The position numbers were made by a program, and so were the translations under genes. A stretch of DNA of 21,415 nucleotides, from positions 1-21,415 of the IMG/VR virus record IMGVR_UViG_3300045120_000089; one strand, given 5' to 3'. The notes below the pieces were generated by a model. It made no database searches and was not told where the DNA came from. It was given only the letters and a program-made list of their open reading frames with translations. This document shows, piece by piece, positions 298 through 15,623 of the stretch. The first letter of the stretch is position 1; every line of letters starts with the position of its first letter. Source of the stretch: a virus.

Positions 298-318
298 CGT
301 GCGCGATGCGTGTATATA
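290..318 (+). promoter_or_regulatory. Weak sigma70-like promoter candidate
   Basis: TTGCGC (290-295) and TATATA (313-318) are separated by 17 bp and are the only sigma70-like pair I found in the leader. The -10 box matches 4 of 6 consensus bases and the -35 box about 3 of 6, so this is weak. If used, transcription would begin near 325. That would exclude the upstream GTG at 310 as a start for the tail-fibre gene and favour ATG 376. Confidence 0.25.
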
Positions 319-375
319 AAGCGTCAGCCGCTCATGGATCGCTCGGCATGGTCCGCTTGCTCGCAGAGCGCGTCA

Positions 376-1308
376 ATGCCGTTCCCGAAGCCGCCGGACA
401 AGATCGTCGCTTTCAATTCAGGCGCGGTCGCTCCTCATGACATCGGCCGTCAATTCGACGAGCACCGCCGGGCGGCGGGCGAAGTCATCAACTTCCTTCG
501 TACAATCGCGCGCGACGACGGGACCGTGAAGAACGGCTCGGTCGGACCCGAGCAGTTAGCGCCGGAACTCCCGGAGACGCTGGCAAAGACAGCGGTCAGC
601 GCGGTCGAAGGACTTTTAGCGCAGGTGCGCCAGAGCGCGGCGCTCGCGGCGCATCATGTCGTCGAAGCGCAGGCGTTGCGTGAAGAACTGGGCGCGCTCT
701 GGGCCGCCATGGCGCAGCAAGTGTCTGCGATGCAGACAGCGGCGAGCGAAGCGCGCGACGCGAGCGCCGAAGCCAGCATGCAAGTGGCCGCCGCGAAGGC
801 GCAGATCGAGGCGCTGTCCACGTCGCTGGCGACCGGACTGCTGGGCGTGGGGGCGGGAGGGTTCTACGGCGTCGATGCGCAGGGCGCCGGAGCGACGGCG
901 CAGGATTACGCGCAAGTAAGTATAGAGTGGGCCGAGCACATGCCCGACATCATTCCCCCGAATGTGTTGGCGATCAACGCGATCACTGGCGATCACTGGT
1001 CCTCGCGGTGGTGGGCGAACCGCGCTGCGGGGATCATCGCTTCGAGTGGCGGCGCCGTCGGTTCCGTGCCTGCCGGGCAGGGCGTGTTCTCCGAGCCGGT
1101 CGCCGTCACCGGCGCCAACGTGTGCGCGCCTCTCACCAAGACGCCGGCCGGCCCGGTTCTCTTGATCGTCAACGGGATCTCGTTTTTGCCCGTCGGAACC
1201 ACGCCGCCATTCACCATGTCGGGCAAAACCATCAACTGGTTTTCGTCGATCTACTCGCTCATTCCCGGACAGACCGAGGTTGCCGCTTGGTACCCATTCG
1301 CGCCATGA
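376..1308 (+). CDS. Tail fibre protein with central coiled coil
   Basis: Probable tail fibre or appendage protein, 310 residues from ATG 376. The N-terminus (PFPKPPDKIVAFNSG, then DDGTVKNGSVGPEQLAPEL) has the look of phage fibre attachment regions in alphaproteobacterial phages. Residues about 70-165 are Ala/Glu/Gln-rich heptads typical of a trimeric coiled coil. A segment reading AEHMPDIIPPNVLAINAITG, followed by DHWSSRWWANRA, leads into a beta-rich C-terminal tip ending WYPFAP. In-frame starts also exist at GTG 310 and ATG 334. I chose 376 because the fibre-like sequence begins there and the only promoter candidate lies between; no start has a good ribosome site. The stop overlaps the next ATG (ATGA). 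A CAGACAC motif (reverse) with a partial second arm lies at 721-738. The receptor is unknown. Confidence 0.75.
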   Translation: MPFPKPPDKIVAFNSGAVAPHDIGRQFDEHRRAAGEVINFLRTIARDDGTVKNGSVGPEQLAPELPETLAKTAVSAVEGLLAQVRQSAALAAHHVVEAQALREELGALWAAMAQQVSAMQTAASEARDASAEASMQVAAAKAQIEALSTSLATGLLGVGAGGFYGVDAQGAGATAQDYAQVSIEWAEHMPDIIPPNVLAINAITGDHWSSRWWANRAAGIIASSGGAVGSVPAGQGVFSEPVAVTGANVCAPLTKTPAGPVLLIVNGISFLPVGTTPPFTMSGKTINWFSSIYSLIPGQTEVAAWYPFAP

Positions 1309-4300
1309 AAAAAGCTCTCGCGTTCCTCGCGCTTTTGGCGTTGTCGTCGCCGGTGTCTGCGCAGACACAGCCGGCCCAAATGGGCATCACGCCTACGACG
1401 ACGCCCGAGGTTTTGCAGACCCTGGACAACACCCAGACCTGGGTTCCGCTGGGCACCGTCAACTCGACGACGCACAAGTTTTCGGTCGTTGGCGGCGGCG
1501 GCAATTCCTACACCGATCACGCCGCGTTGCTGGCTGCGATCACTGCTGCGCCATCGCCGCCGCAGCCCATATCGCAGCAGGGTTTTAGCGCGCCGGGCGA
1601 CGGCGGCGACGCTCTCTATCAGTGGAACGCGGCTTCCTACTGCCCGCTTGGGACATCGAGCGCGCCAGTCGCGGCGGATGGCGTCGTCTGCATCCTGCCG
1701 AGCGCTCAAAGCGCTTCGGTCGCCGGGCGGTATTTGTTGAGCAACGACGGCGCCGTCAACGTCCTGCAAGTGGGCATGAAACCAGGGGGGTTCGACAACT
1801 CTCCCTTGGTGCAGACGCTGATGAACGCCGTCAGCCCCGCCGGGTACACGTCGCCTGCGCCGGAGATCGTGTTTCCGCCGGCGTTGGGGCAGGCGACTAC
1901 GCAGTATTATTTCTCGCAACCGTTTGTGATCGCACGCGGTTCGCGCATCGACTGCCGTGGCGGTCTGAGCCTCGACAGCGCGGGGCCTGTCCAACTGATC
2001 TTTCCTCCCGGCGTGGACGGGCTCATTCAGGAATGGGGCTCCCTTGCGCCGGATTACGGGTTCGGGTTGAGCGACATCAATGGCTGTTCCATCGTGTCGC
2101 TCGGAGGAGGCGGCGCAGCGGGGGCGGTAAACGGTTCGGCGTCGCTGACAAGCGTGAATTTGCACAACCGATTGGCCGGCGCGCCTTTCACCATGCCTTC
2201 GAGCTGCAATCCGTCAGGCGGCGCATGCACGGTCGGCGTCAACGATGGGATCATCGCGATTTCGGGCTGGCAACCAGCCAATAATGACCTGGCGGTCAAC
2301 ACCGGGGCCTACGCCGTGGCGTCCGACCCGGTGGCGAAGACAATGACGCTTTCGACGCCGATCAAGAACATGGGTCTCTTTTCCGGGACGCCGGTGACGG
2401 GTGTGGTGATCTGGGATCTGCCGGCAAGCCAGAAATACTCGATCCGCACCATGCCGTCCTACGTCACCACGACTGCAACGTCGTCGGCCTACAACAGCAC
2501 GACCGGCGACCTGGCGCTGACTTTCGCCACTGCGCCGCTTGGCGCGAGCTATCCGGCAGATACTTGTTTCCAGTTGCAAGTCTACGGTTTCAGCGACACG
2601 GCAGGGACGGACTACCAGCAGCTGTCCGGTGTCTGGTATGTCAACAACATCACTTCGGCCGGAACCGTGATCCATCTCCAAGCTCCAAAGGGGCTGACGA
2701 TCACGTCTCTAAGCGGCGGCATCCTTTACTCAAACGCCATCGGGCTCGCCGGCAACGCCGTTTGCATGCTCTCGGGACCACGCTTGTTGAAGCCGGGCGA
2801 CATGATCTGGTCGGACGCTTTCCTGTTCGGGACGACCGTGACCCAGATGGTCAACCACGTTGCCGGAACGCCTACGGTCCACACCGGCGGTTCTGGATAT
2901 TCCGGGGCTTCCGGCACGATGACCTATAACGGCATTGCCTGCGACAACGGGCCTCCGGTGCTCAACGTGACGGCGTCGGGAGGCGTAATCACCGGCGTCA
3001 CCGGCGTCGCCAATCGCGGCAACTGCATTCGCTACTCGCCGCTGGCTGGCGACACGCATTGGACGGCCGGAGGAGGATTGAGCGGCGGTTCGGGCGCGAG
3101 CTTCGACATGACGTTCAACGAGATCGCCTACGTGAATTGCCTGGCTATCGAGAATTGCCCCGAGACGGCGTCGGTGATCTACCCGGTGGGTTCGGCGGCG
3201 GGCCAAATGTGGACGGTTCCGACGGGTATTATCAAGCGCACGCAGGGCAACACCCATAGCGGCAGTATTACCTATTTCGGCATCGGCATACGAGGTGACT
3301 GCGACCCCGGCACCAGTCCAGGCACTGGCTGCAACGCCAGTTTTGACCAGCAGAACACCATTAGCAACAGCCTGGTGGGACGGATGATGCGAGGCGGCAA
3401 TGCCGGCGTCAGCACGTCCATGCTTAACGTCTTCGCCTACAATTCCATCGTGGACGAGGTTGAGGCTGGGACCATCGGCAGCACCTACATCAGCGAGGAA
3501 TATAACAGCTTCGAGGACGGCAGCGCCTGGAACAGCTTCGTCGGCCTGTGCGGCACGCAAAATTACTCGACGATTTATGGGGCCTACATCACCAACATCG
3601 AGGGCGGTTACTGCATGGGGCTCAACGCCCACGGCTGGGCGACGCTTGTAACCCCGCCGCAACGGCAGAACCCCGGCAGCATGCTGTTCATCGGCAGCAT
3701 TTACGGCGGTCCAATGCCGTCGATAGGTCCGTCGTCGCAGATGGCTGGAAATTGGCGGTTTTCGGGTCAGTCAGACTATTCGATCCACGCAAATGCTGCG
3801 ACGGTTTCTGGTAATATTATTACTCTGGGCAATGTCCCCGCCATCACGGCGGGAATGACCGTCACCAATACGACCCACCCTTCGGTCATTCCTGCCAACA
3901 CGACGGTAAAAAGCTCATTTAGCGGTGGAGTGGTGTTATCGAACGCCGTCACCGGAGCGGGCGTGCAGAACGGCGACGTGATCAATTTTTATCGCGGCTA
4001 CGGCAATGGCTGCACCCAAATTAACGCCGGTCTGGACAACACTACCACACCTCTCGGGGTTTCCCTCGATTGCGTCAACTTCACCGGCATCAGCTATGAC
4101 GGTTATCTCAATGCTTGGTATTTCGGTTCGATAATCATGCCCTACGGACTATTTGCTCCCTACGCCGGATATAATGTTCCCAGCAATCCCCCAGTGCTTA
4201 AGGGCGGTCTTCTTCTGGGCGACAGCGACGGCGGAAACCCCGGCATCGAACGGCTGCTCGACATAGGTGATCAACCCCCTTCCTACGCCGCATGGCACGC

Positions 4301-4856
4301 GCCTGGCGACATTCGGTTCGCTGTCGGCGGGGGAAACTTGCCTGCCCCCGGCAGTGTTTTGGCATGGTCGAACACCATGCTCGCGCGCAATCGCATCAAC
4401 GCCGACGCGCCACTGGGTTCGACGACGATAACAATAGACGCCTGCGCCGGCTGGCCAGTCGGGACAGCGGTCATCGGCGAAACCGCTGGTTCCGTTTATG
4501 GAGTATCAGTCACGCCCAAAGGGCTGGGGACAATGGCATCGTGCGTCGGAACGACGCTGACCTTGCAAGCGCCGTCACTCGCCGCCGTCGTCAATGGCGA
4601 TATCCTCGACTTTGTGTCGTGGCGTCCTGCTGCGCCCATCGCCAATGACGCTAACGGGACAAGCTGGTCGCTCGGCAACTATCTTTATCTGGCTCCGGTT
4701 GCGCTGGCGTCGCTTCCCGCCGCCTGCCCGGCGGGGCAACTCGCGATGATTAGCAACGGCGTCGCCAGCCCTGTCTACAACGCCAATGTCGGCACAACCA
4801 CGGGATCGTCGCCGTCTCCGGTGTTCTGCGCCGGGAATGTCTGGAAGTACCACTGA
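1305..4856 (+). CDS. Tailspike-like large tail protein with Sec signal peptide
   Basis: A 1183-residue protein, probably a tailspike or large receptor-binding protein. Residues 1-19 (MKKALAFLALLALSSPVSA) form a classical Sec signal peptide with an Ala-x-Ala-type cleavage site. After a linker, residues about 75-180 include GDGGDALYQWN and a KPGGFDN stretch like those that precede pectate-lyase-type beta-helices. The middle is rich in Gly/Asn/Thr/Ser with short beta-strand periodicity, including RIDCRGG, as in right-handed beta-helix spikes. Near the C-terminus at least two segments follow a pattern of hydrophobic strands with GMTV, PANTTV and NGDVINF. I recognise no specific catalytic motif, so enzymatic activity on host polysaccharide is possible but not shown. 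The gene begins inside the stop of the fibre gene without its own ribosome site. The frame is open upstream to 927, but that part is the shadow of the fibre gene. Confidence 0.75.
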   Translation: MKKALAFLALLALSSPVSAQTQPAQMGITPTTTPEVLQTLDNTQTWVPLGTVNSTTHKFSVVGGGGNSYTDHAALLAAITAAPSPPQPISQQGFSAPGDGGDALYQWNAASYCPLGTSSAPVAADGVVCILPSAQSASVAGRYLLSNDGAVNVLQVGMKPGGFDNSPLVQTLMNAVSPAGYTSPAPEIVFPPALGQATTQYYFSQPFVIARGSRIDCRGGLSLDSAGPVQLIFPPGVDGLIQEWGSLAPDYGFGLSDINGCSIVSLGGGGAAGAVNGSASLTSVNLHNRLAGAPFTMPSSCNPSGGACTVGVNDGIIAISGWQPANNDLAVNTGAYAVASDPVAKTMTLSTPIKNMGLFSGTPVTGVVIWDLPASQKYSIRTMPSYVTTTATSSAYNSTTGDLALTFATAPLGASYPADTCFQLQVYGFSDTAGTDYQQLSGVWYVNNITSAGTVIHLQAPKGLTITSLSGGILYSNAIGLAGNAVCMLSGPRLLKPGDMIWSDAFLFGTTVTQMVNHVAGTPTVHTGGSGYSGASGTMTYNGIACDNGPPVLNVTASGGVITGVTGVANRGNCIRYSPLAGDTHWTAGGGLSGGSGASFDMTFNEIAYVNCLAIENCPETASVIYPVGSAAGQMWTVPTGIIKRTQGNTHSGSITYFGIGIRGDCDPGTSPGTGCNASFDQQNTISNSLVGRMMRGGNAGVSTSMLNVFAYNSIVDEVEAGTIGSTYISEEYNSFEDGSAWNSFVGLCGTQNYSTIYGAYITNIEGGYCMGLNAHGWATLVTPPQRQNPGSMLFIGSIYGGPMPSIGPSSQMAGNWRFSGQSDYSIHANAATVSGNIITLGNVPAITAGMTVTNTTHPSVIPANTTVKSSFSGGVVLSNAVTGAGVQNGDVINFYRGYGNGCTQINAGLDNTTTPLGVSLDCVNFTGISYDGYLNAWYFGSIIMPYGLFAPYAGYNVPSNPPVLKGGLLLGDSDGGNPGIERLLDIGDQPPSYAAWHAPGDIRFAVGGGNLPAPGSVLAWSNTMLARNRINADAPLGSTTITIDACAGWPVGTAVIGETAGSVYGVSVTPKGLGTMASCVGTTLTLQAPSLAAVVNGDILDFVSWRPAAPIANDANGTSWSLGNYLYLAPVALASLPAACPAGQLAMISNGVASPVYNANVGTTTGSSPSPVFCAGNVWKYH
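1353..1368. other. Perfect 16-bp palindrome made of two CAGACAC motifs
   Basis: GTGTCTGCGCAGACAC is a perfect inverted repeat built from one reverse (1353-1359) and one forward (1362-1368) copy of the genome-wide motif. It lies inside the tailspike gene, exactly over the signal-peptide cleavage region (VSA-QTQ). The reading frame tolerates it, but the symmetry is not required by the protein. Confidence 0.9.
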
Positions 4857-5032
4857 TGACCCAGGTCGCCAGCGAAACGATTAGCGCGCTCAAAACGAGC
4901 CCGCTTTTGCTCGTCGTCGTGGTGCTGAACGCCGGAATGATTTTCGCCCTTCTTTACATCGCCAATGTCCAGCGCGACGAGCGGCAGACACTGACCAAAT
5001 ACGTTGTCGAGAATTGCGGGAGGGCTCCGTGA
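4856..5032 (+). CDS. Small one-TM holin-like protein
   Basis: A 58-residue protein starting at ATG 4856, inside the stop of the tailspike gene (TGATG), and ending in the GTGA overlap with the endolysin start. Residues 16-36 form one strongly hydrophobic helix (LLLVVVVLNAGMIFALLYIA). It is preceded by a short polar N-terminus and followed by a charged tail (QRDERQTLTKYVVENCGRAP). Size, topology and position directly before the endolysin suggest a holin or another small lysis membrane protein. I do not recognise a named family, and a spanin-type role is not excluded, although there is no lipobox. One CAGACAC motif lies in frame at 4985-4991. The gene is certain enough from the double coupling; the function is inferred from context. 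Confidence 0.75.
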   Translation: MTQVASETISALKTSPLLLVVVVLNAGMIFALLYIANVQRDERQTLTKYVVENCGRAP

Positions 5033-5505
5033 GCGAACGCATTCCTCCGTCTAAATTGTTTTTGTCACAGGCCGGAGTGGAAGTTCTGTCTGATCGCGAA
5101 GGGTGCGAACTCACCGCCTATCTCGATACTGTCGGCGTGCTCACAATCGGCATCGGTCATACAAGCAGCGCCGGGCCGCCCACGGTCTATCAGGGCATGA
5201 CGATCACCGAAGAGGCGGCGCATTCGATCTTTCGCTCCGATAACCGGCGTTTTCGCGCCGAGGCGCTGCCGCTGATCGAGGTTCCCTGTCACCAATACGA
5301 ATGGGACGCGCTGTGCAGCTTCCTGTTCAATCTTGGGACGACCCAATTCGCGGGTTCGACCGCGCTTGAACGGCTCAACGATGGGAACTACGCCGGAGTG
5401 CCGGAAGCGATGATGTGGTGGAACAAGCCGCCCGAGATCATCAGCCGGCGCAAAGGCGAAGCGCATCAGTTCGCGACTGGCGAATATATCGCGAGGATCG
5501 CGTGA
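5029..5505 (+). CDS. Endolysin, GH24 (T4-type) lysozyme
   Basis: A 158-residue muramidase predicted to cleave the MurNAc-GlcNAc bond of peptidoglycan at the end of infection. The GH24 signature is clear: Glu24 in REGCELTAY, Asp33 in YLDTVG and Thr39 in TIGIGHT. Their spacing (9 then 6) equals the catalytic Glu11-Asp20-Thr26 of T4 lysozyme. The later segment WDALCSFLFNLGTTQF matches the conserved helical lobe, and RRKGEAHQFATGEY the C-terminal motif. The start is GTG 5029 with GGGAGG a few bases upstream and a GTGA overlap with the holin-like gene. A TTG at 5014 is a weaker alternative. There is no signal peptide or signal-anchor, so export would depend on a holin. Length is normal for the family. 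It sits between tail genes, so lysis and adsorption genes are interleaved. Confidence 0.93.
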   Translation: MSERIPPSKLFLSQAGVEVLSDREGCELTAYLDTVGVLTIGIGHTSSAGPPTVYQGMTITEEAAHSIFRSDNRRFRAEALPLIEVPCHQYEWDALCSFLFNLGTTQFAGSTALERLNDGNYAGVPEAMMWWNKPPEIISRRKGEAHQFATGEYIARIA

Positions 5506-6605
5506 GAACCCGTGCTTGCGCCCTTTTGTTTGCGCTTCTCGTGTCTGCGACGCCGGCATTCGCCGTCGCCACCACGAAATACGCGCTCACCAATTCTGGC
5601 TGGACTGATCTCGGCGCCGGCCCGATGCTGTTGTCGTTTCAGGGGTCGGGCGTCTTCGCCGTCGGCGATACGACGCCGACCCTGGTCAACGAGGGGTTCG
5701 GCATCAGGGCGGGCCGCAGTTTCCCCATCAAGACGACTTCGCACGTGTGGGCAAAGGCGCCGGGAGCGTTTAGCGTCAACGCCTATGTCGCGCCGATCAG
5801 CGCCGGGGGCGGCGGGCCTTTAAGCTGCGCGCAGGCGACGACCCATCTCGCCCGTACTGTAGGGAACAACGAGGGGGGCAACGCAGTAAATATTTCGAAC
5901 TTGATTTGTGGTTTGGTAGTGGATGGGGTGATTGACGGTGATCTCTCACCTATTGTTTCTGGCAAACCTGCCGGTAAAACCCTGCCAGGATGTGGATCGC
6001 ACTTAGACACGCTTTATGTGTATGCGCAGCAAAATGGCATTGATGCGATGCTCAATATTTGTGGGACGAACTATACCGGAGGTAATGCCGGCACTGTTGC
6101 ATTTACCAGTTATGTCGGACTGAACGGGTACAACCTAGGCGGTATTACTTATTCAAATTTTAACCCAACAACCGCCACAAGTCCACATTTCACGTTAAAC
6201 AACGGAAGCTTTGGTGTATGGGCGTATGACGCTTTCTCTGATCCTAAGCCTCAAATGGGAAACGGGAATACTTATCTATATGACAATGCTCCTAACTTTT
6301 ATCCTAGAGTAAATGATAGCAACCCTGCGAATGTCACTACGACAATAACCAAAGGCCTATTCGTCGCAGAACGAAGAGACGCGGCTAACGTATATGGCTA
6401 CCAAAACGGTGTTTCCAGCGCTGCGATGGCAGCGGCATCGACTGGAGTGACCAATGATATGTTTTATATTGGCGGAATAAACGGGGTAGCCTATACAGCG
6501 CAGACACTCAGTGAAGTCCATATTGGCGGCGCGCTCGGCGACACGCTGAACCTCGCTCTCTACAATCGCCTTCGCACGTACATGACCGCGGTCGGAGTTC
6601 CCTGA
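5502..6605 (+). CDS. Fibre-like protein: signal peptide, repeat domain, AT-rich binding module
   Basis: A 367-residue protein starting at GTG 5502 in a GTGA overlap with the endolysin. Residues 1-21 (ending SATPAFA) are a Sec-type signal peptide. Residues about 22-105 form a beta-rich domain with WTDLGAGPML, AVGDTTPT and TSHVW motifs; it is closely related to the whole of the next gene. From about residue 120 the protein changes to a Gly/Asn/Thr/Tyr-rich C-terminal module, ending LYNRLRTYMTAVGVP, that looks like a concanavalin/LamG-type sugar-binding tip of phage fibres. The DNA changes with it: I counted 70% GC in 5641-5700 but 47% in 6181-6240 and 42% in 6301-6360. This suggests a separately acquired receptor-binding domain. 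The role as adsorption protein is inferred; no enzyme motif is seen. Confidence 0.75.
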   Translation: MRTRACALLFALLVSATPAFAVATTKYALTNSGWTDLGAGPMLLSFQGSGVFAVGDTTPTLVNEGFGIRAGRSFPIKTTSHVWAKAPGAFSVNAYVAPISAGGGGPLSCAQATTHLARTVGNNEGGNAVNISNLICGLVVDGVIDGDLSPIVSGKPAGKTLPGCGSHLDTLYVYAQQNGIDAMLNICGTNYTGGNAGTVAFTSYVGLNGYNLGGITYSNFNPTTATSPHFTLNNGSFGVWAYDAFSDPKPQMGNGNTYLYDNAPNFYPRVNDSNPANVTTTITKGLFVAERRDAANVYGYQNGVSSAAMAAASTGVTNDMFYIGGINGVAYTAQTLSEVHIGGALGDTLNLALYNRLRTYMTAVGVP

Positions 6606-6904
6606 TGAAACGCCTTCTTCTTGTGACGTTCCTCGTCTTGTCGCTGACATCGGCGATGGCGGCGGTAGTGACGACGAAGTTCGTGCTCAACAACACAAGT
6701 TGGACCGATCTCGGCGCCGGGCCGATGCTCCTGGGGTTCAGCGGCGGCGGCGTCTACGCCGTCGGCGATACGACGCCGACGATCCCGAAGAGCGAAGGGT
6801 TCTCGATCCCCAGCGGCGAAAGCTTCTACATCAGTTCGACTTCGCATGTGTGGGGAATGTCGAGAGACGTGTTCAACGTGAACGCTTACGTTTCGGCCTA
6901 CTAA
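6605..6904 (+). CDS. Secreted single-domain paralogue of the preceding fibre-like protein
   Basis: A 99-residue protein whose ATG overlaps the previous stop (TGATG). Residues 1-19 (MKRLLLVTFLVLSLTSAMA) form a Sec signal peptide. The mature part is one beta-rich domain homologous to residues 22-105 of the preceding gene; WTDLGAGPML, AVGDTTPT, TSHVW and VNAYV are shared in order. The two genes also share an identical DNA stretch ending GATACGACGCCGAC (5657-5680 and 6757-6780). It lacks the C-terminal binding module. It could be a periplasmic or surface protein, a fibre-base subunit, or the remnant of a duplication in which the tip was lost. Similar length to the repeat unit and a clean stop argue for a working gene. 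Confidence 0.75.
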   Translation: MKRLLLVTFLVLSLTSAMAAVVTTKFVLNNTSWTDLGAGPMLLGFSGGGVYAVGDTTPTIPKSEGFSIPSGESFYISSTSHVWGMSRDVFNVNAYVSAY

Positions 6905-6916
6905 GGAGGTTCAATC

Positions 6917-7354
6917 ATGGCTCTCATTCCTGGCGGCATGCCGCCGCCGCCTCCCGGCGGCCCGCCTCCCGGCGGCCCTCCGGGCGGCGGGATCAGCGGG
7001 CTCCTGGCGAGCCTGGCGAACATGCACGGCGCTCCCGCCGGCCTTATGATGCACCCCGGCGGGGGCGGCGGAATGCCGCCAGGCGCCGGGCCGCCGGCGA
7101 TGCCTCCCATCGCTGGCGGCGGCGGCCCGCCTCCGGGCGCGATGGGCGGCCCTCCCGGTATGGGCGGGCCCCCTCCGGGAATGGGCGGGCCTCCCCCCGG
7201 CATGCGGCCTCCCCCCGTCGGCATGCCGGGCCGCGCTCTCGGCGGGGCGCCCCCTCCGATGGGCGCCCGTCCCAAGTCCCCGGTGGGCAAGCGCCCGCCG
7301 GGCAAGCGGGGCGGCGGCATCAAAGTCAAGCAGTCCCCGGTACGGGTGTCTTAG
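6917..7354 (+). CDS. Glycine/proline/methionine-rich disordered protein
   Basis: A 145-residue low-complexity protein dominated by Gly, Pro and Met, with runs of PPPPP and seven-residue GMGGPPP-type repeats at about residues 76-100. The C-terminus turns basic (RPKSPVGKRPPGKRGGGIKV). The ribosome site is excellent: AAGGAGGT at 6903-6910, 6 bases before ATG 6917. Long open frames also exist on the opposite strand because of the GC-rich repeats, but they have no start signals. I recognise no family. A disordered, nucleic-acid-binding or virion-linked role is possible from the basic tail; nothing in the sequence proves it. It sits between the tail/lysis and packaging genes. Confidence 0.7.
   Translation: MALIPGGMPPPPPGGPPPGGPPGGGISGLLASLANMHGAPAGLMMHPGGGGGMPPGAGPPAMPPIAGGGGPPPGAMGGPPGMGGPPPGMGGPPPGMRPPPVGMPGRALGGAPPPMGARPKSPVGKRPPGKRGGGIKVKQSPVRVS
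7142..7222 (+). repeat. Tandem 18/21-bp coding repeats
   Basis: Successive units begin ATGGGCGG or ATGCGG at 7142, 7160, 7181 and 7202, of 18, 21, 21 and about 21 bp. They encode MGGPPG and (G)MGGPPP-type units in the Gly/Pro-rich protein. Such runs expand and contract by slippage, so the copy number may vary between relatives. Confidence 0.75.
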
Positions 7355-7366
7355 GAGAGTTCTGAA

Positions 7367-7798
7367 ATGGCCGTTGGAGAAAAGAGCGCCCAGTCCTACG
7401 GCTGGGGAACGACGCTTAAGCAGCCGGTGCCAAGCGGCGACGGGGTGGAGATCCCGGCGCCGGGCTTCGATCACCGTTACACAGACACCAAGCACGTCGA
7501 TGTGACTGTTCCCGGAGGCCGGGTGTACCGCGCCGGCGGCGAGGGTGTGCCCGGCGTCGATGTGCTCTTCAACAACGCGGGTTCACACGAACTCCCGGTG
7601 TCTGTCACCGTCAGCAACAACACTCAGGAGGAATGGCCCCTGGGAGGCTCGATCTACGTGTTCGCGCCCCACCTTTTGTCGGCCGGGGCCAACGAATGGG
7701 ACGTGAAAGAGCAGATTTACGATCTCCAGCAGCGCGTCAAGGCTCTGGAGGACGCAACCCTGCAAGAAACCCAAAAACACGAGCCCGAAGCCGAGTGA
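7367..7798 (+). CDS. Hypothetical protein with C-terminal coiled coil
   Basis: A 143-residue protein with GGAGAG at 7354-7359, 7 bases before ATG 7367. Residues about 20-105 are beta-prone with many Gly and Pro (for example HVDVTVPGGRVYRAGG, VSVTVSNN and GSIYVFAP), resembling a small beta-sandwich. Residues about 112-132 (VKEQIYDLQQRVKALED) form a short coiled coil, and the tail is acidic. The stop overlaps the GTG start of the terminase (GTGA). Its position is where a small terminase subunit often lies, but I see no helix-turn-helix and the beta-rich body does not fit one. A virion decoration or fibre-linked protein is equally possible. Family not recognised. Confidence 0.75.
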   Translation: MAVGEKSAQSYGWGTTLKQPVPSGDGVEIPAPGFDHRYTDTKHVDVTVPGGRVYRAGGEGVPGVDVLFNNAGSHELPVSVTVSNNTQEEWPLGGSIYVFAPHLLSAGANEWDVKEQIYDLQQRVKALEDATLQETQKHEPEAE

Positions 7799-9363
7799 AC
7801 GACCAAAGTGAACTCAAACAGCTCTTATTGCGCCGGAAAGCGATCTTTTCGGCGCGCGACGACCTGATTGCGTTCGCCCGTTTCATGATGCCGGTGCCTG
7901 ACACGCCCGACGACGTTAACTTCTCGCTATATCGGCCCGCCAAGCACCACCGAGTGCTCGGCGCAGCCCTCGAAAAGGTCGAAAAAGGTGAGTTTTCGCG
8001 GCTTCAAATCACTCTTCCGCCGCGTCATGGGAAGACCAAGCTTGCGTCGCACCTATTCGCAGCTTGGTTTGCTGGCCGGAACCCCGAAAAGTCGATCATC
8101 GTCGCGACTTACAGCGAAAAATTCGCCTGGGACCATGGGAGAGCCGTCCGGGACATCATCGAAAACCCGCTTTTTCAGCAAGTTTTCCCCAATACGCGCC
8201 TTAAACCGGGCTCGGCGTCGATGGACCGGCTCGAAACCGAGCAGGGGGGCGTCCTCTTCTTCCTAGGGCGGGGTTCCGGAGCGACCGGGCGCGGCGCTGA
8301 CGTGATTTTGCTCGACGACCCGACCAAAGATCGAAAAGAAGCAGACAGTCCGACGATACGCGAGCAACTTTGGTCCTGGTACACCCAGGTCTTGCAGACA
8401 CGCCTGATGACCAAAGAAGGCCGCATCGTGATCATCCAGACACGGTGGCACGAAGACGATCTCATAGGCCGGCTCACAGATCCTACAAACCCGTGTTATT
8501 CCGTGAGCGAAGCGCAGAAATGGCGGGTGATCGACATGCCGGCGATTGCGCGCGAGAAAGACGTTCTCGGCCGCAAAGTGGGCGAGGCGTTGTGGCCGGA
8601 GCGCTTCGACCGCGACTATCTCGACAGTCTCCGGGAAACCGACATCAGAGGGTTTCAGGCGCTTTACCAGGGGCGCCCGACGCCCGAAGAGGGCTCTTTC
8701 TTCAAGGCGGTGTCGCTGCGCACCTACGTCAAGATGCGCGACATGCCGGGCAAGGAGCGGCTTCGCTATTACGGGGCCTCGGATCACGCGGTTTCGCTCG
8801 AACAGGGCCGCGACAAGACTTGCCTGATGATCATCGGTGTCGATGAGCGCGATGACATTTGGGTGCAACCCGACCTGTTCTGGCAGCAGGCAGACACCGC
8901 GACGGTGGTCGAGAACATGGTCCAGATGATGGACAAGTACCAGCCTTTATTCTGGTGGGCAGAAAAAGGGCACATTTCGAAGAGCATCGGCCCCTTCCTG
9001 CGCAAGCGCATGCTGGAGAAGCGGGTGTTCTGCACCATCGACGAAATCACGCCCATCGGCGACAAGCAGACACGCGCCCAATCGATGCAGGCGCGCATGA
9101 CGATGGGCAAGGTGGTTTTCCCCGGTTTCACCCGCTGGTGGGCGGAAGCCCACGACCAGATGCTCAAGTTTCCGCAGGGCGCGCACGACGACTTCGTCGA
9201 TACGCTTTCGCTCTTTGGCTATGGCCTGTATCGTCAGCGCGGCCAGCGCGCAGCGCCGAAAGAGAGTAAGACGCCGAAAATGCTCACTTACGGCTGGGTG
9301 ATCGAAGACGCCGCGCGCGAGCGTAAGAAAGAGCGTTCGCACATGACGGTCGGAGGCTGGTGA
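7795..9363 (+). CDS. terL: Terminase large subunit (packaging ATPase/nuclease)
   Basis: A 522-residue DNA-packaging motor. The N-terminal ATPase has a Walker A-like loop PPRHGKT (residues 75-81), a Walker B strand VILLDD (170-175), and the coupling segment IIQTRWHEDD (about 213-222). The C-terminal RNase H-like nuclease shows a first acidic strand with Asp330 (YYGASDHAV) and a terminal Asp pair (465-466, in HDDFVDTLSLF). Length is normal. The start GTG 7795 overlaps the previous stop; the open frame extends upstream to 7633, but only as a shadow. The protein packages DNA into the prohead through the portal encoded just downstream. Four CAGACAC motifs fall inside this gene, one of them within the coupling-segment codons. 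No small subunit is recognisable in the window. Confidence 0.95.
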   Translation: MNDQSELKQLLLRRKAIFSARDDLIAFARFMMPVPDTPDDVNFSLYRPAKHHRVLGAALEKVEKGEFSRLQITLPPRHGKTKLASHLFAAWFAGRNPEKSIIVATYSEKFAWDHGRAVRDIIENPLFQQVFPNTRLKPGSASMDRLETEQGGVLFFLGRGSGATGRGADVILLDDPTKDRKEADSPTIREQLWSWYTQVLQTRLMTKEGRIVIIQTRWHEDDLIGRLTDPTNPCYSVSEAQKWRVIDMPAIAREKDVLGRKVGEALWPERFDRDYLDSLRETDIRGFQALYQGRPTPEEGSFFKAVSLRTYVKMRDMPGKERLRYYGASDHAVSLEQGRDKTCLMIIGVDERDDIWVQPDLFWQQADTATVVENMVQMMDKYQPLFWWAEKGHISKSIGPFLRKRMLEKRVFCTIDEITPIGDKQTRAQSMQARMTMGKVVFPGFTRWWAEAHDQMLKFPQGAHDDFVDTLSLFGYGLYRQRGQRAAPKESKTPKMLTYGWVIEDAARERKKERSHMTVGGW

Positions 9364-12933: not shown

Positions 12934-14049
12934 ATGGCATTCACAGCAGGCGAAATCGCGTCCATCGCCAATTCGGCGCTCGACTTCTACTTCAACAAAG
13001 GCGGCCAGTTCGACCAGACGATCCAGAACAAGCCGCTTCTCAACAAGATGGAGGGCTCGAAGAAAACCTTCCCCGGCGGCAAGGGCAATATCTCACTGGC
13101 AGTCGTCGGCGCGTATGGCGACGGCTCCGGCAACGACGTGGTCAAGGGCTACAGCCACAACGACGCGGTCGGGTTCTTCACCCCGGCCAACATCAAGCGG
13201 GCGAACTACCCCTGGCGCGAGCACCACATCGGTCTGACGCTCACCCACACCGAGCTTAAGATCGATGGGATCAGCGTCGTAGACACCAACGGCGAGCGCA
13301 CCGCCGAGCACTCGAAGCGCGAAATGACGGTGCTCGTCAACCTCCTCGAACAGAAGCTGTTCTCACTCGGCGAGCAGTACGCGCGCACGATGAACGCGCT
13401 TCTGTGGGGCGACGGCGTGGCGGACGCCAAGGCTCTCGCCGGCATGCAGTCGATCATCAAGGCGAACCCCTGCACCGGCACGGTCGGCGGCATCGACCAG
13501 ACGACCGCGACCGGCTCCAACTGGTGGCGTAATCGGGCGAGGACCGCCGCGATGGCGACGCAAATTGGAACCGTGCCTGGCGACGCGATCTCCGGCGGCG
13601 GCCCCGTTACCTCGGCCACGACAGCCGGCGGCGCCCTGCTCCAGGCGCTCCAGCACGAGTATTTCCAGCTCATTCGTTATGGCGGCAAGCCAACGATGGC
13701 GCTGGCCGGCAGCGCGTTCATCGACGCCCTGATGATCGAGCGCCGGGCGAACGGCTTCTACTCGATGACCGGGTTCTCGAACTCGCAGGATGTCTCTTCG
13801 GGCGACATCATCCTGGCCGGCGGGACCAAGGTGCAATACGACCCGACCCTCGACGATCTCGGGTTCTCCAAGCGGATGTACTGGTTCGATCCCCGGTGCA
13901 TTTTCCTGATGGCGATGGAAGACGAGTGGCGCAAGGACCACACCCCGGCGCGGCCCTACAACATCTTCGTTCTCTACAAGAGCATCACGAGCACCGGCCA
14001 GATGGTGGCGTCCCAGCTCAATTCGTCGCTGGTTATCGACATCACCTAG
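12934..14049 (+). CDS. Major capsid protein
   Basis: A 371-residue coat protein immediately after the scaffold. The N-terminus (AFTAGEIASIANSALDFYFN) is followed by a glycine-rich KTFPGGKGNISLAVVGAYGD region like the flexible arm of HK97-fold coats. WREHHIGLTLTHTELKIDG and the long helix MTVLVNLLEQKLFSLGEQYA fit the spine helix. The C-terminal half contains SGDIILAGGTKVQYDPTLDD and ends with strand-rich SSLVIDIT. Cysteines are few. The ribosome site CGGAG (12922-12926) precedes ATG 12934. HK97 fold is assumed as for all tailed phages; no single residue signature proves it. The clean base composition and strongest start region fit high expression. Confidence 0.88.
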   Translation: MAFTAGEIASIANSALDFYFNKGGQFDQTIQNKPLLNKMEGSKKTFPGGKGNISLAVVGAYGDGSGNDVVKGYSHNDAVGFFTPANIKRANYPWREHHIGLTLTHTELKIDGISVVDTNGERTAEHSKREMTVLVNLLEQKLFSLGEQYARTMNALLWGDGVADAKALAGMQSIIKANPCTGTVGGIDQTTATGSNWWRNRARTAAMATQIGTVPGDAISGGGPVTSATTAGGALLQALQHEYFQLIRYGGKPTMALAGSAFIDALMIERRANGFYSMTGFSNSQDVSSGDIILAGGTKVQYDPTLDDLGFSKRMYWFDPRCIFLMAMEDEWRKDHTPARPYNIFVLYKSITSTGQMVASQLNSSLVIDIT

Positions 14050-15452: not shown

Positions 15453-15623
15453 ATGAGCCTCCTCGGTGTCGTTCTCGTCGTCATCGTGGTCCTGATCCTG
15501 TTCGGCGGGATCAGTCCCGGAACGCCGTGGGGCTATGGCTACGGCGTCGGGCATTACGGCGTCGGCGGCATCGGGTTGATCCTGGTGATCCTCCTCGTTT
15601 TACTATTGCTCGGGCGGATATGA
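15453..15623 (+). CDS. DUF3309-like small membrane protein
   Basis: A 56-residue protein with GAGAGGAAA just before ATG 15453. Two hydrophobic helices (residues 2-20, LLGVVLVVIVVLILFGG, and 38-55, GGIGLILVILLVLLLLGRI) flank a Gly/Tyr/Trp-rich loop (TPWGYGYGVGHYGVGG). This two-helix pattern with an aromatic-glycine loop and the final LLLLGRI matches what I remember of the DUF3309 family, common in Rhizobiales chromosomes. Function is unknown. It overlaps the next tiny membrane gene (ATGA). In a phage it might be an alternative holin, a virion membrane-channel component or a gene taken from the host. Confidence 0.75.
   Translation: MSLLGVVLVVIVVLILFGGISPGTPWGYGYGVGHYGVGGIGLILVILLVLLLLGRI

Follow-up and report, generated by a model that had tools for sequence, protein, structure and literature searches.

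Predicted Sec signal peptides and paired cysteines in fibre-type proteins of tailed phages

The window analyzed here is a virus record of the IMG/VR type (IMGVR_UViG_3300045120_000089), a single stretch of 21,415 bases with its genes in order on the plus strand. Three of its late genes, which encode putative fibre- or spike-type proteins of 1183, 367, and 99 amino acids (aa), begin with predicted Sec signal peptides (Table 1). They sit beside other fibre genes in the virion structural operon and, as the original prediction had it, they flank the lysis genes, with a holin-like gene (4856-5032) and an endolysin gene of family PF00959 (5029-5505) lying between them.

Table 1. Features of the fibre cluster and the adjoining structural genes in the window
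Feature	Position	Strand	Description
Fibre-like gene without signal peptide, opens the fibre cluster	310..1308	+	332 aa from GTG
Large spike/fibre-position gene, 1183 aa	1305..4856	+	Predicted signal peptide and mature protein with 22 Cys
Signal peptide MKKALAFLALLALSSPVSA, cleavage predicted before QTQ	1305..1361	+	19 residues
Holin-like gene, single transmembrane segment, 58 aa	4856..5032	+	No family match in profile searches (Pfam, PHROG)
Endolysin, Phage_lysozyme PF00959, E 1e-30, without signal peptide	5029..5505	+	
Fibre-like gene, 367 aa, GTG start	5502..6605	+	Predicted signal peptide followed by a small beta domain and a phrog_26223-like C-terminal domain that has a Cys pair
Signal peptide MRTRACALLFALLVSATPAFA, cleavage predicted before VAT	5502..5564	+	21 residues
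C-terminal domain of the 367-aa protein, paired Cys (SCAQAT ... LICGLV)	5817..6602	+	
Short fibre-like paralogue, 99 aa	6605..6904	+	Predicted signal peptide and one small beta domain
Signal peptide MKRLLLVTFLVLSLTSAMA, cleavage predicted before AVV	6605..6661	+	19 residues
Two small genes			Between the 99-aa gene and the large terminase gene
Large terminase	7795..9363	+	Fibre cluster directly upstream
Portal gene, then scaffold-position gene			Between terminase and major capsid protein
Major capsid protein	12934..14049	+	Basis for picking clade members independently of fibres

The three starts had been described as a basic residue, a hydrophobic core, and an Ala-x-Ala-type site, and the translations from 1305, 5502, and 6605 bear this out: each has a basic n-region, a core of 13 to 15 residues, and small residues at -3 and -1 (VSA, AFA, and AMA), the pattern of Sec export with cleavage by signal peptidase I. 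Their starts are fixed because they overlap the preceding stops by 1 to 4 bases (1305-1308, 5502-5505, and 6605). With a self-written rule (not SignalP) that combines the basic n-region, the uncharged core, and the -3/-1 residues, the three proteins score 4.88, 5.08, and 4.96, and Escherichia coli OmpA and OmpF score 4.88 and 5.01. On two regions of E. coli K-12 the rule was positive for 19 of the 28 proteins taken to be exported and for 2 of the 58 others, both of which are inner-membrane proteins. No lipobox of the lipoprotein, signal peptidase II, superinfection-exclusion type is present, the +1 residues being Gln, Val, and Ala and not Cys. The proteins also do not resemble signal-anchor-release (SAR) proteins, lysis enzymes whose weakly hydrophobic N-terminal segment stays uncleaved, since they have Ala-x-Ala sites and match no lysozyme or other lysis family (Pfam, PHROG). 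When the rule was applied to the 1247 genes called in the first 93 loci (one of them the window), 36 were positive, and the strong ones were mostly genes in fibre or spike positions. In the full collection, 87 signal-bearing genes have Ala at -1 in every case and Ala or Val at -3 in 74, which the rule and the score cut partly impose; the +1 residue is Gln in 34.

The label "tailspike-like" for 1305-4856 fits its position and size but draws no support from sequence matches, as no Pfam, PHROG, or NCBIfam family above cut-off and no PDB-sequence match was found. Peptide patterns recovered no relative of this protein from viral contigs, a search of INPHARED found none, and an AlphaFold model from a three-row alignment had a predicted local distance difference test score of 27.5. 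The other two genes are indeed paralogues, as had been proposed (6605-6904 and 5523-5792 are 60% identical), and 5502-6605 matches phrog_26223, a family of unannotated function. The signal-bearing gene of clade member L116 matches a tail family, phrog_17312. In Foldseek searches the model of the 99-aa protein gave weak matches to double-stranded beta-helix/cupin-like folds in PDB (best E 6.5e-3, VIA Z at most 8.6) and to small, mostly unnamed phage proteins in BFVD; the modeled fold is a common one and gives no function. The Foldseek matches I2FLS9 (rank 16, E 1.5e-3) and I2FLT0 (rank 47, E 5.4e-3), equated through protein lengths with tf_60 and tf_61 of Pseudomonas phage tf, share a similar small fold and adjoin a tail-fibre gene, but unlike the 99-aa protein they lack a signal peptide.

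Exported proteins prefer even numbers of cysteines, a criterion taken from PMC7678975. The mature parts of the three window proteins contain 22, 4, and 0 cysteines (1183, 367, and 99 aa). In the non-redundant set from all phage loci collected, mature cysteine counts were even, odd, and zero in 73, 4, and 10 of the 87 signal-bearing genes versus 238, 312, and 250 of 800 signal-less genes (Fisher 8e-20); this set left out genes scoring below 4, incomplete genes, near-duplicates (2077 reduced to 1401), signal-bearing genes under 80 aa, and signal-less genes under 150 aa. Because many loci were fetched with cysteine-containing peptide patterns, parity was retested on other subsets. Clade loci selected by capsid protein alone gave even/odd/zero counts of 18/0/3 (21 signal-bearing genes) versus 146/194/174 (514 signal-less genes; p 5e-7), and all loci minus the patterned C-terminal-domain proteins gave 63/4/10 of 77 versus 240/321/253 of 814 (p 3e-17). 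Cysteine content differed as well. For genes of at least 250 aa it was 1.47% with a signal and 0.57% without in the all-loci set, and 1.32% (15 signal-bearing) versus 0.47% (58 signal-less) in fibre regions, where L110 (score 2.46, probably a false positive) was counted and a 388-aa gene of L095 was set as signal-bearing by hand.

A specific pair of cysteines varies together with the signal. For the C-terminal domain of the 367-aa protein, homologues were gathered with cysteine-requiring patterns, with one pattern that does not require cysteine, and from bacterial genomes, and 61 rows yielded 55 distinct domains after four near-duplicates and two truncated rows were dropped. Signal and pair occur together in 25 of these, the signal only in 4, the pair only in 2, and neither in 24 (Fisher 2e-9); the rule alone, without the by-eye signal call for L145_4631, gives 24/4/3/24 (Fisher 2e-8). 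A domain tree built without the pair columns shows 11 changes of the signal and 10 of the pair, and the 11 contrasts of the best tree comprise 7 that agree, none that oppose, and 4 ties (p 0.016). A screen of 297 genomes from a single bacterial order gave 6 prophage homologues of the domain, spread over 5 genomes; five of the six have neither pair nor signal, and the sixth, L185, lacks the pair and has its N-terminus outside the piece examined. L116 provides a second example: its tail protein, which bears a signal, has Cys at a site where three named homologues, phage structural proteins without a signal, have Gly, and this site adjoins another Cys common to all four.

The signal also behaves as a unit that can be present or absent. 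A small domain makes up the mature 99-aa protein and recurs near the N-terminus of the 367-aa protein, and 7 of the 9 such domains that were aligned have a signal-like start, some of them judged by eye. In the other two (L003 and L010) the initiator Met falls at -1 of the cleavage site and the sequence downstream aligns; the signal-less copy of L003 is also present in L004 and L005. With the Met of signal-less homologues placed precisely where cleavage is predicted, the signal is a modular add-on. In L003 and L005 a tandem of 527-aa and 81-aa genes with the small domain lies upstream of the terminase gene, in the slot of the window's 367-aa and 99-aa genes, and neither member has a signal. Every homologue of the 1183-aa protein with a readable N-terminus has a signal (one each in L106, L095, and L138 and two in L142, of which one was read by eye after the rule missed it); the start of a further match, in L018, is cut off. 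In L190 the motif QSGN[IV]TPGH directly follows the predicted signal peptide of a 471-aa protein (6571-7986, minus strand) and stands close after the Met of a 162-aa protein (8546-9034, minus strand); judged by sequence, this pair is a second module that exists with and without a signal.

Signal-bearing genes within virion structural operons occur in the window's clade and in several unrelated phage types. Of 23 terminase-bearing fibre regions, 8 (the window, L095, L099, L100, L102, L106, L113, and L116) contain one or more signal-bearing genes that are 250 aa or longer. The 23 regions are the window, L095-L104, L106-L114, L116, L117, and L122; the L105 and L115 pieces, which have no terminase gene, were left out, and L110, with its low score, was left out of the eight. 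The other 15 have no such gene, and most have signal-less fibre-like genes in the same slot. Beyond the clade, the 48.6-kb phage L192 has signal-bearing cassettes located between its capsid gene and its tail genes (phrog_212, 394, and 376), such cassettes also occur in the 67- to 70-kb phages L190, L191, and L193 and the 47-kb phage L194, and L093 has a signal-bearing 112-aa gene whose neighbors resemble, by eye, contractile-tail genes. An uninterrupted run of seven genes starts at position 6726 of L193; the rule marks six of them as signal-bearing, the 499-aa one was judged so by eye although it lacks a basic residue, and their mature regions contain 10, 8, 4, 6, 22, 16, and 20 cysteines. The last of them contains the head-spike fibre domain of gene transfer agents (GTA) at 51.7 bits against a cut-off of 36. 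Above its cut-off the domain is carried by a signal-bearing protein of G066. The search found it in 2 of 20 records, and it also turned up in 5 of the 14 genomes that served as controls, so it is not rare.

Two large proteins have starts that look twin-arginine-like: a 932-aa protein in L194 (12983-15781, plus strand; 16 cysteines in the mature part; MKLTRRNLGRLF) and a 707-aa protein in L162 (at 5747; 13 cysteines in the mature part; MLNQATRRKFLAG). These proteins possibly use twin-arginine translocation (Tat) instead of Sec.

The original prediction left two options for the hydrophobic starts, export to the envelope or anchoring in the virion. The parity, the roughly 2.5-fold cysteine content, the co-varying pair, and the signal-less starts at the cleavage site favor the first and disfavor the second. 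Because the cysteine counts are even and the pair tracks the signal, export with oxidative folding in the periplasm is very probable. The host Sec pathway would export the three proteins and signal peptidase I would cleave them; they would then fold in the oxidizing periplasm, where those that bear cysteines would gain disulfide bonds. Encoded beside the lysis genes, they would accumulate late in infection and be released together with virions by the action of the holin and endolysin. The released proteins might then join virions that already bear the operon's signal-less fibre, as spikes or accessory fibres, an attachment and timing that we infer from the operon position, from the GTA domain, and from modules that fill one slot with a signal in some phages and without it in others. 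We favor this reading of the last step and hold it about as likely as not. The slot upstream of the terminase gene is filled by both kinds of module, and the signal-less ones in related phages argue that some of the exported proteins, at least, belong to the virion but are produced along another path. More tentatively, such phages may have a second route of tailed-phage morphogenesis, in which receptor-binding fibres or spikes that are Sec exported (a few perhaps by Tat), folded in the periplasm, and disulfide bonded are fitted to finished virions at lysis, a route switched on and off repeatedly in several unrelated soil-phage lineages as the signal was acquired or lost along with the cysteines.

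Several observations weigh against export and assembly at lysis. We know of no tailed-phage fibre that is built outside the cytoplasm. The 99-aa protein has no cysteine at all, and some signal-less proteins are rich in them (12 and 14 in the 441-aa and 814-aa proteins of L190, 6 in the 527-aa protein of L005). The pair occurs without a signal in L161 and L159, and four signal-bearing domains lack it. Shared ancestry of the domains is a genuine concern: the firmly supported branches of the domain tree provide just 3 independent contrasts, which are not significant and too few for a test. Of 8 signal-bearing proteins searched by tblastn against 50,697 phage records, 2 gave matches to part of a domain and 6 gave none, and the records searched included no isolate or proteome of the clade with such a gene. 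Two relatives by capsid protein have been isolated, Microcystis phage Mae-Yong1326-1 and Rhizobium phage RHph_N65; no signal-bearing fibre was found at their annotated starts, with 49 of 57 and 23 of 69 annotated coding sequences, respectively, covered.

The alternative that survives best, that the proteins are exported and never become part of the virion, deserves serious attention even though we think it less likely than not. Set free at lysis or retained in the envelope, such fibre-like proteins could bind surface polysaccharide or break it down, cover receptors, or serve as decoys. Superinfection exclusion and a released depolymerase, which the original prediction also named, may likewise be their role. 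The evidence for export is identical under this explanation. In L100 a 933-aa protein is pectate-lyase-like (Pfam, below cut-off, E 5e-5; phrog_32881 pectin lyase, E 1e-12) and a 303-aa protein is arabinofuranosidase-like (Pfam, below cut-off, E 4e-4). L099 and L113 have signal-less fibres in addition to the signal-bearing ones, and a detachable, biofilm-degrading GTA tailspike is reported in PMC13420450. However, signal-less versions of the same modules fill the same slot in related phages, and no sequence feature was seen for crossing the outer membrane before lysis. It is also conceivable that the hydrophobic start stays uncleaved and anchors the protein in the virion or a membrane, since cleavage is predicted and the rule confuses some inner-membrane helices with signals, as in the E. 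coli benchmark. Against this stand the -1 and -3 residues, partly rule imposed as they are, and a core of 13 to 15 residues; parity and pair co-variation imply an oxidizing compartment, and signal-less homologues start at the cleavage site. Such an anchor, which explains neither the parity nor the module boundary, is quite unlikely. Least credible of all is that the signals are chance or relics inherited with domains of secreted host proteins and cause no export in the phage, which the rule-based prediction and the origin of the loci in metagenome contigs would allow. A relic would not show some 11 changes of signal state on the best domain tree, nor cysteine pairs that tend to go along with them, and the signals stand in front of phage-specific modules that also occur without them.

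Signal-bearing virion proteins are already known from filamentous phages, whose coat proteins, such as pIII, lose a signal peptide by cleavage and form disulfides in the periplasm. Assembly of those phages takes place at the membrane, whereas the phages considered here are tailed, with terminase, portal, and capsid genes. Export of tailed-phage proteins is likewise known, for lysis: Sec-exported endolysins such as Lys44 of phage fOg44, as well as SAR endolysins, are late proteins with an N-terminal export signal, as described in PMC6116005. Those are wall-acting lysis enzymes, whereas in the window the fibres have the signal and the endolysin does not. The RcGTA head-spike fibre rcc01080, whose domain (NF048003) is found in signal-bearing proteins of G065 and G066, is a particle protein attached by its N-terminal ten residues, and residues 2 to 10 are visible in the particle, so that no signal has been removed (PMC10218006). 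A profile search of the window gave no match to NF048003. No report of signal peptides on tailed-phage fibres was found in searches of open-licence PMC papers, which does not establish their absence from print.

The accepted view is that folding and assembly of tailed-phage fibres are cytoplasmic. If the fibres described here are exported and oxidized first, the assembly order and the study of host range in such phages need rethinking, as does the annotation of "hypothetical secreted proteins" in soil viromes, and disulfide-stabilized fibres would represent a new class of robust binding proteins. If the proteins are not virion parts, the same data would point to a widespread secreted arm of phage infection.

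Some further features of the clade were noted. The fibre cluster of clade members begins, as in the window, with genes similar to 310-1308, a gene for which a Pfam profile search gave no family above cut-off. Whether this gene is shortened in signal-bearing phages was not clear from a by-eye look at fibre regions, and we do not claim it. Two phages recorded from Microcystis, OP028995 (L127) and PP438406 (L136), are related to this phage group or carry its fibre domain, and their stated cyanobacterial host may deserve a check. A 145-aa protein composed mostly of Pro, Gly, and Met (6917-7354 in the window) has look-alikes close to the terminase gene in several clade members, for example L095 and L096. 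A small membrane protein that begins MSLLGVVLVVIVVLILFGG (15453-15623) has look-alikes by fibre or lysis genes in L095, L109, and L122.

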